DNA of 64,000 nt from an uncultured bacterium (GTDB taxonomy: Bacteria; Sysuimicrobiota; Sysuimicrobiia; Sysuimicrobiales; Sysuimicrobiaceae), in contig CALIMJ010000010.1 of NCBI GenBank assembly GCA_938028835.1, positions 1 to 64,000 on the forward strand. Reading direction: 5' to 3'. Positions 31,113-36,156 of the stretch are shown here, piece after piece. The notes below the pieces were generated by a model. It did not search any database and was not told where the DNA came from. It saw nothing but the letters and a program-made list of their open reading frames with translations. Numbering within the stretch: position 1 is the first letter of the stretch; each line of letters starts with the position of its first letter. The translations under genes and the position numbers were made by a program.

Positions 31113-32729
31113 CTACCGCGGGTAGATGACCACCCGGCGGAAGGGCTCCTCGCCCTTGCTCTCGGAGGACAACCCGTACCGCTGGACCAGCTGGTGCTGG
31201 AGCCTGCGGATGTAGGCGTTCTGCGGGGACAGCTCCACAGGCTGGGCCTCCTCCAGTACCTCCCGGATGGCGTCCTCCACCTCCCTCAGGGCCGCCTCCT
31301 GGTCGTCTAGGTAGTCCCCCACGTCGAACAGGGACCGCAGGAACGCCTCGAGCTGTGTCACGGTGTTGCTCCGCACCACGTGCAGCGGCATGCCGCGCAG
31401 CTGCGCGTCCCGCAGCCGCTTGGGCTGGCGCTTCTCCTGGGACTTCACCGTCACCACGAGGTCTGCTTCCTCCAGGTGATCCACCACGTAGGCGGGAACC
31501 CGCAGCTCCCGGATGGCGCGCTCCAGTCGGTTGCGGCTCACCGCATACGGGTAGATCCGCAGGACCTTGCGGCCCGGCCGCTCCCCGGAATCCGGAGGCT
31601 GGGCGGCGAACGGGCCCTGGGGGGCGAAGGTGTCCACCCGCACCTGCGAGGGCTGGATCTCCACCCCGCCCTCCGTGGTCCGGACCCGGACCTCCGGCCT
31701 GGGGGGGATCCCCCGCAGGAACCGGTCCACCACCTCCGCCACGTTGTGGTGGACCGCCAGCTTGTCCTTCTCCTGGATCTCGATCACCACGTCGAAGGTA
31801 GGCGGTGCCTTGCGCTCCAGCACCGTCTTCTGGGTCCCCCGGCGGCGCGCCTCCTCGTCGGACAGGGTCACCGCCTGGATCCCCCCCACCAGGTCGCACA
31901 GGGTGGGGTTCTGCAGGAGGTTGTCCAGGGTGTTGCCGTGCGCGGTGGCAATCAGCTGCACTCCCCGCTCCGCGATGGTCCGCGCGGCCAGGGCCTCCGC
32001 CTCGGTGCCGATCTCGTCGATCACGATCACCTCAGGCATGTGGTTCTCCACCGCCTCGATCATCACCGCGTGCTGGAGGGACGGCTCGGGCACCTGCATC
32101 CGCCGTGCCCGGCCGATGCCCGGGTGGGGGATGTCGCCGTCCCCCGCGATCTCGTTGGAGGTGTCCACCACGACCACCCGCTTGCCCAGCTCATCCGCCA
32201 GGACCCGCGCGGCCTCCCGCAGCAACGTGGTCTTGCCCACTCCCGGCCGGCCCAGCAGCAGGATGGACTCCCCCGCCTCGATGACGTCCCGTACGATGTC
32301 CACGGTGCCGTACACCGCGCGCCCCACCCTGCACGTGAGGCCCACGATCTCCCCCATGCGGTTGCGGATGGCCGAGATGCGGTGGAGGGTCCGCTCGATC
32401 CCGGCCCGGTTGTCCTTGCCGAACCGCCCCACCCGCTGCGCCACGTACGCGAGGTCCTCGCGGGTCACCTCCCGCACCGGCAGAACCTGTGTGCCGTCCG
32501 TGAAGCGGGCCTCCGGGACCCGGCCCAGGTCCATCACCACCTCCAGGAGGGTGTCGCGCCGGTCCAGGCGCTCTACGGCCTCCCGGATGTGCGGCGGTAA
32601 CACCGCCAGCAGCGCCTCCAGGTCGTCCGTGATGCTGATCTGCCGGGTAGCCAAAGCCCTCACCCGTTCGGGCGGCGACTCCGCCCCCGTCCGCTGCCAG
32701 GGATGCCCGTACGTGCGCAGCGTCGCCAA
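31113..32729 (-). CDS. R3H-domain AAA ATPase (SpoIIIAA/Ycf45-like)
   Basis: A 538-residue protein. Central RecA-type ATPase: Walker A LLGRPGVGKTTLLREAARVL near 158-177, Walker B MPEVIVIDEIG near 228-238, and GVQLIATAHGNTLDNLL. C-terminal nucleic-acid-binding segments include an R3H-like part. Homologs with this layout occur in cyanobacteria and other Terrabacteria and resemble SpoIIIAA; their role is unknown but linked to single-stranded nucleic acid. The start codon appears to be TTG 32729 with GAGGAGGGG 7 nt upstream. A terminator hairpin lies immediately upstream, so expression may depend on readthrough or on a promoter in the 80 nt before it. Confidence 0.85.
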   Translation of the reverse strand: MATLRTYGHPWQRTGAESPPERVRALATRQISITDDLEALLAVLPPHIREAVERLDRRDTLLEVVMDLGRVPEARFTDGTQVLPVREVTREDLAYVAQRVGRFGKDNRAGIERTLHRISAIRNRMGEIVGLTCRVGRAVYGTVDIVRDVIEAGESILLLGRPGVGKTTLLREAARVLADELGKRVVVVDTSNEIAGDGDIPHPGIGRARRMQVPEPSLQHAVMIEAVENHMPEVIVIDEIGTEAEALAARTIAERGVQLIATAHGNTLDNLLQNPTLCDLVGGIQAVTLSDEEARRRGTQKTVLERKAPPTFDVVIEIQEKDKLAVHHNVAEVVDRFLRGIPPRPEVRVRTTEGGVEIQPSQVRVDTFAPQGPFAAQPPDSGERPGRKVLRIYPYAVSRNRLERAIRELRVPAYVVDHLEEADLVVTVKSQEKRQPKRLRDAQLRGMPLHVVRSNTVTQLEAFLRSLFDVGDYLDDQEAALREVEDAIREVLEEAQPVELSPQNAYIRRLQHQLVQRYGLSSESKGEEPFRRVVIYPR

Positions 32730-32864: not shown

Positions 32865-34052
32865 CTACGAGACCGCCTGCAGGACGAAGCACTTCAGGTA
32901 GCGGGTCTCCGGCATGGCGGCCAAGGCCGGGTGGTCCCGCGCCTGGGATCGGTGTTCCACCAGCCGCAGGCGCCGGCCCGCGTCCCGGGCGGCGTCCAGG
33001 ACCACGCCCCACAGGCTGGCGTCGTCCACGTGGTGGGAGCACGAGCACGTGACCAGGAAGCCCCCGGGGCGAAGCAGCTTGAGGGCCCACAGGTTGATGT
33101 CCCGGTAGCCCGACAGCGCCCGGGGGACCGCCTCCTTGCGGCGTGCGAACGCGGGTGGGTCCACCACCACCCAGTCGAAGGACCGCCCCTCCCTGGCGAG
33201 TGCCCGCAGCTCGTCGAAGGCGTTGGCCACCCGGTACTCGCAGCGATCCCCCACGCCGTTCAGCCCGGCGTTCTCCCGGGCCAGCCGGACCGCCTCCTCG
33301 CTCACCTCGATGCCCAGCACGGACCGGGCACCCGCCAGGGCCGCGTGCACCCCGAAGGCACCCGTGTAGCTGAATACCTCCAGCGCCTCCGCCCCGCGGG
33401 CGGGACCCGCCACGCTCAACCGGTTCTCTCGCTGGTCGCAGAACCACCCCGTCTTCTGCCCCCCTTGAACGTCCACCACGAACCGGGCGGGTCCCTCCTG
33501 CACGACCTGACGCAGGTCCGCCTCACCCCGGACGAACCCCTGGTGCCGGGGCAGGCCCTCCAGCTCCCGCGCGTGGGGGTCGTTGCGCAGGTACACGGCC
33601 CGGCAGCCCGTGAGGGATAGCAGGAGGTCTGCCAGCAGCTCCTTGCGCACGTCCATGCCCACGGCCAGGGTCTGCATCACCAGCAGGTCGTTGTAGCGAT
33701 CCACCACCAAGCCCGGGAGCAGGTCCCCCTCCCCGTACACGAGCCGGTACGCCGTAGTCCCCGACACCACCCGCTCCCGCAGCCGCAACGCCTCCCGCAG
33801 CCGGCGCTCGAAGAACGCCTCGTCCACCGGCTCCTCGCGGTCCGTCAGCAGGCGCACCCGGATGGCGGACTGCGGGCTGAAGGTGCCCCGGCCCAGGAAC
33901 TCGTTGCGCCACGACCTTACGTCCACCACCTCGCCGGGTGCCGGGTCGCCGTGGACCTCCTCCACCTCGCCCGCGTACACCCACAGGTGACCGGCCCGCA
34001 GCCGGCGGTCCCGGCCGCGCCGCAGCACCACCGCGGGAGTGCGCGCGGCCAT
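32865..34052 (-). CDS. rlmI: 23S rRNA (cytosine-C5) methyltransferase, RlmI family
   Basis: A 395-residue class I SAM methyltransferase with an N-terminal PUA domain (LRRGRDRRLRAGHLWVYAGEV) and the EEHD-like linker (YRLVYGEGDLLPGLVVDRY). SAM motif: EALEVFSYTGAFGVHAALAGA near 235-255; catalytic motifs VVVDPPAFARRK and VTCSCSHHV carry the conserved proline pair and cysteine. It makes m5C in 23S rRNA in related bacteria. It ends in a strong terminator 80 nt downstream and begins 5 nt after the endonuclease Q stop, so these genes form one unit. Confidence 0.9.
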   Translation of the reverse strand: MAARTPAVVLRRGRDRRLRAGHLWVYAGEVEEVHGDPAPGEVVDVRSWRNEFLGRGTFSPQSAIRVRLLTDREEPVDEAFFERRLREALRLRERVVSGTTAYRLVYGEGDLLPGLVVDRYNDLLVMQTLAVGMDVRKELLADLLLSLTGCRAVYLRNDPHARELEGLPRHQGFVRGEADLRQVVQEGPARFVVDVQGGQKTGWFCDQRENRLSVAGPARGAEALEVFSYTGAFGVHAALAGARSVLGIEVSEEAVRLARENAGLNGVGDRCEYRVANAFDELRALAREGRSFDWVVVDPPAFARRKEAVPRALSGYRDINLWALKLLRPGGFLVTCSCSHHVDDASLWGVVLDAARDAGRRLRLVEHRSQARDHPALAAMPETRYLKCFVLQAVS

Positions 34053-34057
34053 CCTGC

Positions 34058-35299
34058 TCAGAACAGGCTCATCTGGGCGCCCTCGGCCGTGGCTGCCGGT
34101 GCCTGCTTCGGGCTGTCCTCGAACAGGTGGATCCGCCCGAACTCGCCGTCATACCCGGGCTCGATGTACACCCTCCCCTCCCTCATCCGGCGGATCCCCT
34201 CCACCACCCTGGGGTGGGTGGCCCGCTCCAGCTCGTCCAGCGGCACCTCCTCCAGGACGCGCAATTCGTCCCCGAACCGGGCCACCAGCTTCAGGTACTC
34301 GTCGCGGACCCGTGCGGTACCCACCCCCTGGTCCAGGGCCTCCGCCAGGATCTCGTCTAGGGGGATCAGGTTCCGGTAGCCGGGCCGGCCGGGAGGCCGG
34401 ACCCCCTCCGCTCGGTCGGCCAGGGACTCCACTCGGTGCAGGACCCCCACCGTCACCGGCCGGCCGCAGCGCGGGCAGCGTCCCCCGTGCTGCCGGGTCA
34501 CGCGGGGCGGCCAGCGGATCCCGCAGGCCCGGTGCCCGTCGTAGTGGTACTTGCCCTCCTCGGGGAAGAACTCGATGGTGTAAGCGACGCGGCCGGTCCG
34601 CAGCGCCTCCACGACGGCCGAGTAGGACCGGTCACAGTCCAGGACGGTCGCCTCCCTTCCCAACTTGGACGGGGAGTGGGCGTCGCTGAAGGACACCAGG
34701 GTGACGCGGTCCAGGAAGCTGCACCGCCAGTTCATGGGCGGGTCGCTGCTGAGCCCGGTCTCGATGGCCCGGATGTGGGGCAGCTGGTCGCCGAAGCAGC
34801 TCTCCAGGTCGTCGAAGCCCGACTGGGATCCGAACACGGAGAACCACGGGGTCCACGCGTGGGCGGGGATCACCAGGCAGTCCGGCGAGAGCTCCATCAC
34901 GTACTCCACCAGCTTGGCGCAGGACACCGTCAGGGTCGGGCGGCCATCCGCCATCAGGTTGCCGAAGCGCCCCAGGACCGCCGCGATCCGCTCGCACACC
35001 TCGAAGGACGGGCTCAGCAGGATGCTGTGGACCTTCCGCAGCCGGCCGTCCTGGCTGTACACGTTGCTGACCTCCGCGGTGAGCAAAAACCGCGTCTCCC
35101 CGTAGCGGTACAGGCCGGGTTCTGCGGGCTCCAGCTTGGCCCGGAGCTCCCGCAGCCACACCGGGTGGGTGAAGTCACCCGTGCCCACCACATGGATGCC
35201 CTTCCGCCGCGCCCACACGCTGAGGTTCTCTACGTCCATGTCACGGCTGGTGGCGCGGCTGTACCGGGAGTGCAGGTGCAGGTCACACACCAGCCTCAT
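34058..35299 (-). CDS. Endonuclease Q (PHP-domain repair nuclease) with C-terminal clamp motif
   Basis: A 413-residue PHP-family protein. Metal residues lie in CDLHLHSRYSRATSRDMD, GTGDFTHPVW, AHAWTPWFSVFGS and SFSDAHSPSKLGRE; a zinc element follows (ACGIRW, then GGRCPRCGRP), matching EndoQ, which nicks 5' of deaminated bases such as uracil and hypoxanthine in archaea and some bacteria. The last five residues are QMSLF, the form of a bacterial sliding-clamp binding pentapeptide (QLxLF) and analogous to the archaeal PIP box. ATG 35299 overlaps the MBL-hydrolase stop (ATGA). Deaminated-base repair suits a hot environment. Confidence 0.85.
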   Translation of the reverse strand: MRLVCDLHLHSRYSRATSRDMDVENLSVWARRKGIHVVGTGDFTHPVWLRELRAKLEPAEPGLYRYGETRFLLTAEVSNVYSQDGRLRKVHSILLSPSFEVCERIAAVLGRFGNLMADGRPTLTVSCAKLVEYVMELSPDCLVIPAHAWTPWFSVFGSQSGFDDLESCFGDQLPHIRAIETGLSSDPPMNWRCSFLDRVTLVSFSDAHSPSKLGREATVLDCDRSYSAVVEALRTGRVAYTIEFFPEEGKYHYDGHRACGIRWPPRVTRQHGGRCPRCGRPVTVGVLHRVESLADRAEGVRPPGRPGYRNLIPLDEILAEALDQGVGTARVRDEYLKLVARFGDELRVLEEVPLDELERATHPRVVEGIRRMREGRVYIEPGYDGEFGRIHLFEDSPKQAPAATAEGAQMSLF

Positions 35300-36156
35300 G
35301 CGCGGCCTCCCCGGGCCGGGCGCAGCAACCACTCCCGCACCCGGGCGTAGGTGACCGGCAGGGCGGAGGTCAGCCCGTAGCCGGGGAAGCGGGCCTGCAG
35401 CTCCCCGGTCACCTCCGCCTCCCCCTTTCCCGCAGCCAGCCCCTGCCGGACCACCTCCTCCACCGCGTCGTGGTAAGCGGCCTGCGCCTGTAACACCTCC
35501 GGCCCTCCCGGGAGTCCGTGTCCGGGAACGAACACCTCCGCGTCCAGGGACCGCAAGGCCTCCAGGCCACGCCGTACGCCGGCCAGGTCCGCGTCCTGGT
35601 AGTTGAAGTGGTAGCGGTGGAAGACCAGGTCTCCGCACACGGCCACGGCCGCGTCGGGCAGGTACACGAAGGCGTCCCCGGGCGTGTGGCCATGTCCGGG
35701 ATGCCACACCTCCACCTCCACGCCCAGGTGGACCCCGATCCCCTGGTCGAACGTGAGGGAGGGCAGCACCAGCACCACCTCCGACAGGAGTTCCGCGGCC
35801 TCCGCCTGACCCCGTCGGGCCGCCAGCTGGCCGGGGTGGTCTGCGGCCATCCGCTCCCGGCAAGCCCGGTGCGCGACCAGCAGCGCGCCCTGCCGCACGA
35901 AGTGCACCGCTCCCCACGTGTGATCCGCGTGGTGGTGGGTGAGCACCACCAGCCGCACGGGCCGGTCTGTCTTCTGCCGCAGCGCCGCCTCCACACGCCG
36001 CGCGTGGGCGGGCGACAGCAGGGTGTCGATGAGGACCACCCCCGCGTCGGCCACCACGGCCACACAGTTGGCACCGTAGCTAGCGGCCGGCCCGTCCCCG
36101 TCGAACCCCCATACCCACACGTTGTCCCTGACCTGAACTTCCCGTAGCTCACTCAT
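35296..36156 (-). CDS. Metallo-beta-lactamase-fold hydrolase
   Basis: A 286-residue MBL hydrolase with the di-zinc motif LTHHHADHTWGAV (H-x-H-x-D-H) near 72-84, further ligands in HPGHGHTPGD and CGDLVF, and the VPGHG segment. The layout is that of a glyoxalase II/quinoprotein-relay-type hydrolase; the substrate is not evident. The start ATG 36156 follows AAGGGGT. It is the first gene of the MBL-EndoQ-rlmI unit and divergent from the second HtrA gene. Confidence 0.85.
   Translation of the reverse strand: MSELREVQVRDNVWVWGFDGDGPAASYGANCVAVVADAGVVLIDTLLSPAHARRVEAALRQKTDRPVRLVVLTHHHADHTWGAVHFVRQGALLVAHRACRERMAADHPGQLAARRGQAEAAELLSEVVLVLPSLTFDQGIGVHLGVEVEVWHPGHGHTPGDAFVYLPDAAVAVCGDLVFHRYHFNYQDADLAGVRRGLEALRSLDAEVFVPGHGLPGGPEVLQAQAAYHDAVEEVVRQGLAAGKGEAEVTGELQARFPGYGLTSALPVTYARVREWLLRPARGGRA

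Follow-up and report, generated by a model that had tools for sequence, protein, structure and literature searches.

The DNA analysed here, referred to as the window, is a stretch of 64,000 nucleotides from contig CALIMJ010000010.1 of an uncultured bacterium (GTDB phylum Sysuimicrobiota). Features at the locus under study are collected in Table 1. The central gene encodes a homologue of endonuclease Q (EndoQ), and a GGAGG stretch precedes its ATG. Read in the minus-strand frame, the C-terminus of the protein is ...AEGAQMSLF-stop. A preliminary description of this DNA had placed a pentapeptide of the bacterial clamp-binding type, QMSLF, at the protein's end within positions 34058-34110; its codons were indeed found there, at 34061-34075. 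Because P0001 carries one extra residue before Met, its residue numbers run one above the native numbering.

Table 1. Features of the EndoQ gene, its product and its immediate neighbours in the window.
Feature	Position	Strand	Details
EndoQ coding sequence, 413 aa	34058..35299	(-)	ATG 35299-35297, stop TGA 34060-34058
Pentapeptide QMSLF, clamp-binding type, C-terminal	34061..34075	(-)	P0001 residues 410-414
Disordered tail (predicted), QMSLF at tip	34061..34111	(-)	P0001 residues 398-414, pLDDT <50
Asp207 (SDAHS), PfuEndoQ Asp193 position	34682..34684	(-)	phmmer match and 51-sequence alignment
Likely zinc-ligand region, H257xxC260 ... C276xxC279	34466..34534	(-)	CxxC ... CxxC in PfuEndoQ
Downstream neighbour, PUA + SAM methyltransferase (RlmI-like)	32865..34052	(-)	start 5 bases past EndoQ stop
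Upstream neighbour, metallo-beta-lactamase-fold hydrolase	35296..36156	(-)	stop overlaps EndoQ start (ATGA)

A relative of the RlmI-like methyltransferase was present near EndoQ in 29 of 38 loci of the window's phylum, as judged from the stretch around each locus. It was present in only 1 of 80 named loci (the best 80 of at least 513 relatives; see below). A conserved pairing of EndoQ with the metallo-beta-lactamase-fold gene was also considered and was rejected, given that a relative of the latter occurred in only 3 of 38 loci. Past the methyltransferase gene, further downstream, positions 31113-32729 encode an AAA+ ATPase that includes SpoIIIAA-like, PTPase-like (PF25516) and R3H domains. 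As regards a mobile origin, plasmid and phage records gave no match at E 1e-5, and one scan of viral contigs yielded none that was confirmed.

The identity of the protein as EndoQ, likewise proposed in the preliminary description, was borne out by both sequence and structure comparisons. The phmmer search matched the window protein to PfuEndoQ (PDB 5zb8) at E 2.4e-53 over residues 6-397, with about 30% identity, and all PDB matches at E <= 0.001 were EndoQ chains (5zb8 and 7k30 to 7k33). The AlphaFold2 model of the window EndoQ had a mean pLDDT of 91.4, with values below 50 at residues 398-414. In Foldseek comparisons, the best match of this model was 5zb8_A (TM 0.85/0.88, 411 columns), and the dU-DNA complex 7k30_A was matched at TM 0.83/0.87 over 398 columns. 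These values point to a body that is confidently predicted to adopt the EndoQ fold, with the motif at the tip of a predicted disordered tail. Moreover, H9, H11, D207 and H209 were invariant among 51 aligned sequences, and both the HxH and the Asp193 equivalent of the PHP active site were present; PfuEndoQ Asp193, which aligns with D207, reads Asn in the crystal sequence of the 7k30 dU complex. The zinc-binding domain holds four candidate zinc ligands, of which the first pair is HxxC, as against CxxC in Pfu. Among NCBIfam models, the protein matched TIGR00375 (E 2.4e-55) at 188.4 bits against an equivalog cut-off of 326.6 bits, and this cut-off was exceeded in 0 of 43 genomes of the window's phylum and in 0 of 16 genomes of the named loci. 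Given a score under the cut-off, the protein is therefore a homologue in a sister subfamily, outside that equivalog. We conclude that the window gene encodes an EndoQ homologue of a bacterial subfamily sister to the archaeal enzymes. No member of the window clade could be tied to a biochemical study.

Such distance raises the question of substrate. A deep split (SH-aLRT 100) separates the clade from TIGR00375-like proteins and PfuEndoQ, and this split, the HxxC rather than CxxC zinc pair and the score under the equivalog cut-off would all accord with a clamp-binding PHP nuclease or phosphoesterase that no longer cuts deaminated DNA, acting on another lesion or on an RNA or DNA end. However, the PHP residues, the Asp193 equivalent and the zinc-domain cysteines are retained, and the near full-length fold match extends to the structure in complex with dU, so that we regard a change of substrate as unlikely and retain the reading of a nuclease for deaminated DNA.

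Given that conservation of the terminal pentapeptide in relatives had been set out in advance as a test of its relevance, C-termini were compared within the window's phylum. When 40 loci were examined, two were cut by contig ends; in all 38 complete C-termini (own gene included), Q..LF formed the last five residues, with the consensus Q-[TMI]-[STNR]-L-F. One of the phylum's loci (L026) contains one in-frame TAG; its frame was left as it stood and counted by its tail. Q, L and F were invariant, and the linker at positions -9 to -16 was variable (entropy 2.4-3.3 bits). Entropies computed for the named loci described below depend on prior selection for the motif and do not enter the evidence. Positions -6 and -7 were mostly A and P, and the linker is therefore only partly free. 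At the motif residues, synonymous codons were in use (2 for Q, 4 for L and 2 for F). Shuffling of the last 15 residues produced the motif in a mean of 0.28 of the 38 sequences, with a maximum of 3.

Background was estimated by using neighbouring reading frames, with a strict (Q..LF) and a relaxed (Q..[LMI][FLIMVW]) form of the motif, both scored in the last 15 residues. The ORFs were mechanical predictions of >=150 aa in the loci and >=120 aa in the window. Among 399 flanking ORFs, 10 carried the relaxed motif and 2 the strict one, both of the latter being UvrD-like helicases directly adjoining EndoQ; among the 47 other ORFs of the window, neither form was found. A chance origin of the motif was rejected on the basis of this background together with the shuffles.

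EndoQ, detected as a TIGR00375 match, was present in 40 of 43 genomes of the window's phylum and in 28/28 of the well-assembled ones. Beyond the phylum, a scan of genome contigs gave at least 513 confirmed relatives of the window EndoQ, of which the best 80, chosen by similarity to the query, constitute the named loci. These best 80 of at least 513 fell into 20 named NCBI phyla, plus 21 unplaced loci. Complete C-termini were available for 76 of them; the strict motif was present in 56 and absent in 20, and the relaxed motif was present in 66 and absent in 10. Counted by phylum in the same 80, the strict motif was found in 17 and the relaxed motif in 20 of the 20 named phyla. Shuffles of these 76 C-termini gave a mean of 0.68 and a maximum of 4. 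Exceptions to the strict pattern comprised ELSLF/ELPLF in two Bipolaricaulota proteins, tails ending at the core, and replacement of the final F by L or I in actinobacterial fusions. Linker length ranged from 11 to 47 residues among 79 single-domain proteins. The conservation that had been sought was thus observed in all 38 sequences of the window's phylum and, in strict form, in 56 of the 76 from the named loci.

These data also bear on whether the tail ends in QxxLF merely by chance or shared ancestry, without function. The 38 sequences represent one small phylum and are not independent (the others are 61-97% identical to the query), and such relatedness would by itself favour shared ancestry. 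Against this stand the variable linkers beside invariant Q, L and F with synonymous changes, the strict motif in 17/20 named phyla (best 80 of at least 513 loci), and a shuffle mean below 1. For the clade as a whole, this explanation was already unlikely; with all of the evidence considered, it appears extremely improbable, and we continue with a tail under functional constraint.

The search was extended to individual phyla, where the 30 loci retained per search were the best-scoring among the matches listed. In the phylum to which a Thermodesulfovibrionales record belongs (genome G066, locus L083), TIGR00375 matches occurred in 129 of 295 genomes, and the best 30 listed loci gave 21 strict and 23 relaxed motifs; one locus of this phylum (L292) has one in-frame TAA, and its frame was likewise left as it stood and counted by its tail. 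In the phylum of G055, EndoQs were more divergent, with a match in 33 of 54 genomes and the strict motif in 10 of the 30 best listed loci. Two very divergent, tail-less EndoQ-like proteins from the latter phylum (L175 and L182, ~33-34% identical to the query, on long branches) possibly belong to another PHP nuclease subfamily. In the phylum of Saccharopolyspora (G061, Actinomycetota), 9 of 296 genomes had a match, two of these being weak matches for which the query protein gave no hit; the five complete C-termini from this search included 0 strict and 4 relaxed motifs. The phylum of a Clostridium sp. (G062) had matches in 207 of 398 genomes, 2 of them over the cut-off, and contained both EndoQ types described below. 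EndoQ had been portrayed in the preliminary description as known mainly from Thermococcales, a portrayal at odds with matches in 40/43, 207/398 and 129/295 genomes of three bacterial phyla. In the available text of published accounts, EndoQ is described as occurring in "only a few bacterial genuses" (PMC4357722) or "some limited groups in Bacteria" (PMC6202378); the counts obtained here (207/398, 129/295 and 28/28 well-assembled genomes of the window's phylum) indicate a bacterial distribution broader than a few exceptions.

Not all bacterial EndoQs carry the motif. The 30 best TIGR00375 matches from the Clostridium phylum had it in 0 of 30 cases, the proteins ending soon past the core. In an unrooted tree of 78 rows, 47 window-type proteins were set apart by a branch with SH-aLRT 100; the 30 clostridial proteins formed a separate group, and PfuEndoQ, the sole archaeal row, fell outside the window clade. 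The first zinc pair followed the same division, being HxxC in 45 of 47 window-type rows (one HH and one CC in the remainder) and CxxC in 30/30 clostridial rows and Pfu. A second clostridial-phylum sample consisted of 20 regions picked by hand from the matches in that phylum. In this sample, the motif was found in 0 of 10 proteins of the CxxC type, so that 40/40 clostridial CxxC-type EndoQs over both samples are without it. The strict motif was present in 6 of 7 HxxC helicase fusions from this sample, the seventh ending in QISFL plus two residues, and the motif was found in 0 of 3 HxxC single-domain proteins. One clostridial genome (G571, loci L301 and L302) contains both EndoQ types, namely a CxxC single-domain protein without the motif and an HxxC helicase fusion with it. 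Given that the CxxC-type samples are without the motif, the motif tracks the HxxC clade, not bacterial origin as such. Within the HxxC clade it comes and goes; the relaxed motif required 11 changes by parsimony on a 108-row tree.

The preliminary description had further suggested that the nuclease was adapted to the bacterial clamp. In the sense of a PIP box converted into a clamp motif, this was not upheld: the motif goes with one bacterial clade, and no tail motif was seen in those bacterial EndoQs whose scores are closer to the archaeal-type model (0/30 and 0/10). Given that the tree is unrooted and includes one archaeal sequence, the root cannot be placed, and the conversion is unsupported by it.

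The proposed binding partner was examined next to the motif itself. The genome of the window contains one DnaN match, 32% identical to E. coli DnaN. At aligned positions that we take to line the peptide pocket, E. coli residues R152, L155, T172, G174, R176, L177, P242, V247, N320, V360 and P363 are kept, and H175, R246, S346 and M362 differ. The organism has two C-family polymerases. An internal QTGLF is present in the examined part of one; in the second, no QTGLF-type motif was seen in the part examined. In the available portion of PMC12309361, the clamp-binding consensus is given as QL[S/D]LF or QxxLF, and B. subtilis DnaN is reported to bind QLSLF at 3.8 uM and QMGLF at about 78 uM. From its sequence, QMSLF likely binds DnaN, although perhaps modestly, because it keeps the anchors and has the consensus Ser at position 3. 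As a point against a tether, clamp-type peptides can bind weakly, as QMGLF does in the portion of that report available.

Fusions of EndoQ to a helicase were a recurrent finding. Among the best 80 of at least 513 loci, 22 encode complete fusions of 988-1,174 aa, in which EndoQ is followed by a UvrD/PcrA-like helicase. When two fusions and one adjacent helicase were scanned, matches to PcrA, UvrD and Rep were far below the equivalog cut-offs. On the EndoQ tree, 3 changes of the fusion state are required. A 31-row group of less than firm support (SH-aLRT 89) contains nearly all fusions, together with a non-fused protein (L119) and a stop-split one (L100); this group is nested in a 39-row group (SH-aLRT 97), and the remaining 8 rows include L078 and L114, with a separate helicase directly downstream. 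In the 22 fusions (best 80 of at least 513), the relaxed motif occurred in the last 15 residues of 22/22 and the strict motif in 15/22. A second set of 29 fusion frames was assembled from 25 named loci and 4 from the Saccharopolyspora-phylum search, three being cut by contig or locus ends; Q..LF was retained at the old EndoQ end in 12 of these 29. The fusions L128, L145, L310 and L311, among others, have an internal QxxLF (at about residue 414-440) plus a terminal QxxLF. The model of one fusion without the strict internal motif (L109; mean pLDDT 79.5, pTM 0.57) was of low confidence at residues 419-469 and 1034-1053, which correspond to the old EndoQ end and the terminus.

Related arrangements were also seen. 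In L078 and L114, EndoQ is not fused but is followed immediately by a UvrD-like helicase gene (L078:4273-6231 and L114:4251-5051, the latter incomplete), as if fusion came after adjacency. In L078, EndoQ ends in ...GQGTLF and the separate helicase in ...PQMGLF, a clamp-type end. In a Ruminococcaceae record (L100:3001-6168), the EndoQ frame stops and the helicase continues at once in the same reading frame, which represents either a fusion interrupted by one stop codon or a fault in the assembly. The motif as a general trait of UvrD helicases was rejected for the window's phylum where readable: 18 of 30 stand-alone PcrA-like loci could be read and had a KRLAL-type tail without the motif (in the other 12, another frame had been picked). 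The window genome gave partial helicase matches only and no locus. In the open-licence literature, no paper on EndoQ-UvrD fusions was found.

That a UvrD-like helicase adjoins or is fused to EndoQ elsewhere demonstrates that other partners exist, and the terminal peptide could accordingly dock a dedicated helicase or another replication protein, merely resembling the clamp consensus. However, the motif is still terminal in the helicase fusions, where a peptide for docking the helicase would be idle, and the fixed positions Q, L and F (I or L in some fusions) are the anchors published in the available part of PMC12309361. We therefore give docking to a partner other than DnaN little credence, and take DnaN as the partner in what follows.

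Taken together, these data make it very probable, as far as can be judged from sequence, that EndoQ of the window nicks deaminated DNA and that its QMSLF tail tethers the nuclease to DnaN and hands the nick onward. In the proposed mechanism, incision by the globular body, made up of PHP and zinc-binding parts, would fall 5′ of uracil, hypoxanthine and abasic sites. The flexible tail would place its QMSLF in the peptide pocket of the sliding clamp DnaN and so keep the nuclease on repair patches or freshly replicated DNA. The nick, with its 3′-OH, would then pass to the polymerase and ligase on the clamp, the tail serving with DnaN as the archaeal PIP box serves with PCNA. In fusion proteins, the attached UvrD-like helicase could displace the damaged strand. 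Tethering to DnaN by the tail is strongly suggested by the conserved motif. We infer the lesion specificity of the window enzyme by analogy with its family, and likewise the hand-over to polymerase and ligase. In archaea, EndoQ nicks 5′ of dU, dI, dX and AP sites (PMC4357722, PMC4858679), and PCNA stimulates it via its C-terminal PIP box (PMC4858679), according to the available parts of these sources. The idea that the window's phylum relies on EndoQ alone for uracil repair was rejected, given that the UDG superfamily (PF03167) was found in 39 of 43 of its genomes. Because the window's own genome has two UDG-superfamily matches, EndoQ is probably not the only uracil route there and probably works beside glycosylases. 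Extended to the large bacterial EndoQ clade as a whole, one might picture a clamp-guided system for repair of deaminated bases that acquired its DnaN motif early. Within one branch, a UvrD fusion with one motif in the linker at the old EndoQ end and another at the new terminus could then occupy the two pockets of the DnaN dimer at once, incise 5′ of the lesion and peel off the damaged strand, all as one polypeptide; we offer this extension as a doubtful, if conceivable, scenario.

The clamp-motif idea is itself not new, because a beta-clamp consensus in the C-terminal region of bacterial EndoQ was remarked by Shiraishi et al. in 2016 (PMC4858679, in the part of the text available). Bacterial EndoQ was noted by Shiraishi et al. 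in 2015 and 2016, and Bacillus pumilus EndoQ was studied in 2017, as cited in the available text of PMC6202378. Going beyond the 2016 remark, the motif is, on sequence grounds, a mark of a widespread bacterial HxxC branch, including helicase fusions; the clade split with its zinc-ligand marker, the bacterial breadth and the two-motif fusions were not found in print in the open-licence literature. If the tail binds DnaN, bacteria with HxxC-type EndoQ would possess, alongside uracil-DNA glycosylase, a route for removing deaminated bases that is coupled to the replication clamp, and the QxxLF peptide would parallel the archaeal PIP box in role. The helicase fusions provide a ready two-activity protein for testing clamp coupling.

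In comparison with known systems, the window protein has in common with PfuEndoQ and TkoEndoQ (5zb8, 7k30) the PHP, zinc-binding and C-terminal architecture, the fold and the catalytic-site residues, and in the archaeal enzymes a clamp motif likewise stands at the extreme C-terminus. In those enzymes, however, the motif is a PIP box (QRTLLQYI in Pfu and QRSITEFL in Tko, in the available text of PMC4858679), whereas the window's motif is of the bacterial QxxLF type; the PIP-box pattern Qxxhxxaa was not found at the C-terminus of the window protein, which ends in QMSLF. PfuEndoQ also differs in its CxxC first zinc pair (HxxC in the window protein) and in lying outside the window's clade. The bacterial EndoQ of Shiraishi and colleagues resembles the window protein in being bacterial and in having a C-terminal beta-clamp consensus (PMC4858679, available part), whereas the CxxC-type bacterial EndoQs sampled here, all from the Clostridium phylum, are without the motif (0/30 and 0/10). 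The EndoQ-UvrD fusions belong to the same EndoQ clade as the window protein and also have a clamp-type motif close to the C-terminus; they differ in having an extra helicase and, in 12/29 frames, a second, internal QxxLF. Finally, the DnaN client PolC (QLSLF) likewise has its QxxLF at the C-terminus in the available text of PMC12309361; PolC is a polymerase, whereas the window protein is a predicted lesion-nicking endonuclease with M and S at positions 2 and 3 of the motif. The window EndoQ presents two sequence features of a bacterial DnaN client, namely a QxxLF in a predicted flexible segment and conservation of this motif in relatives.
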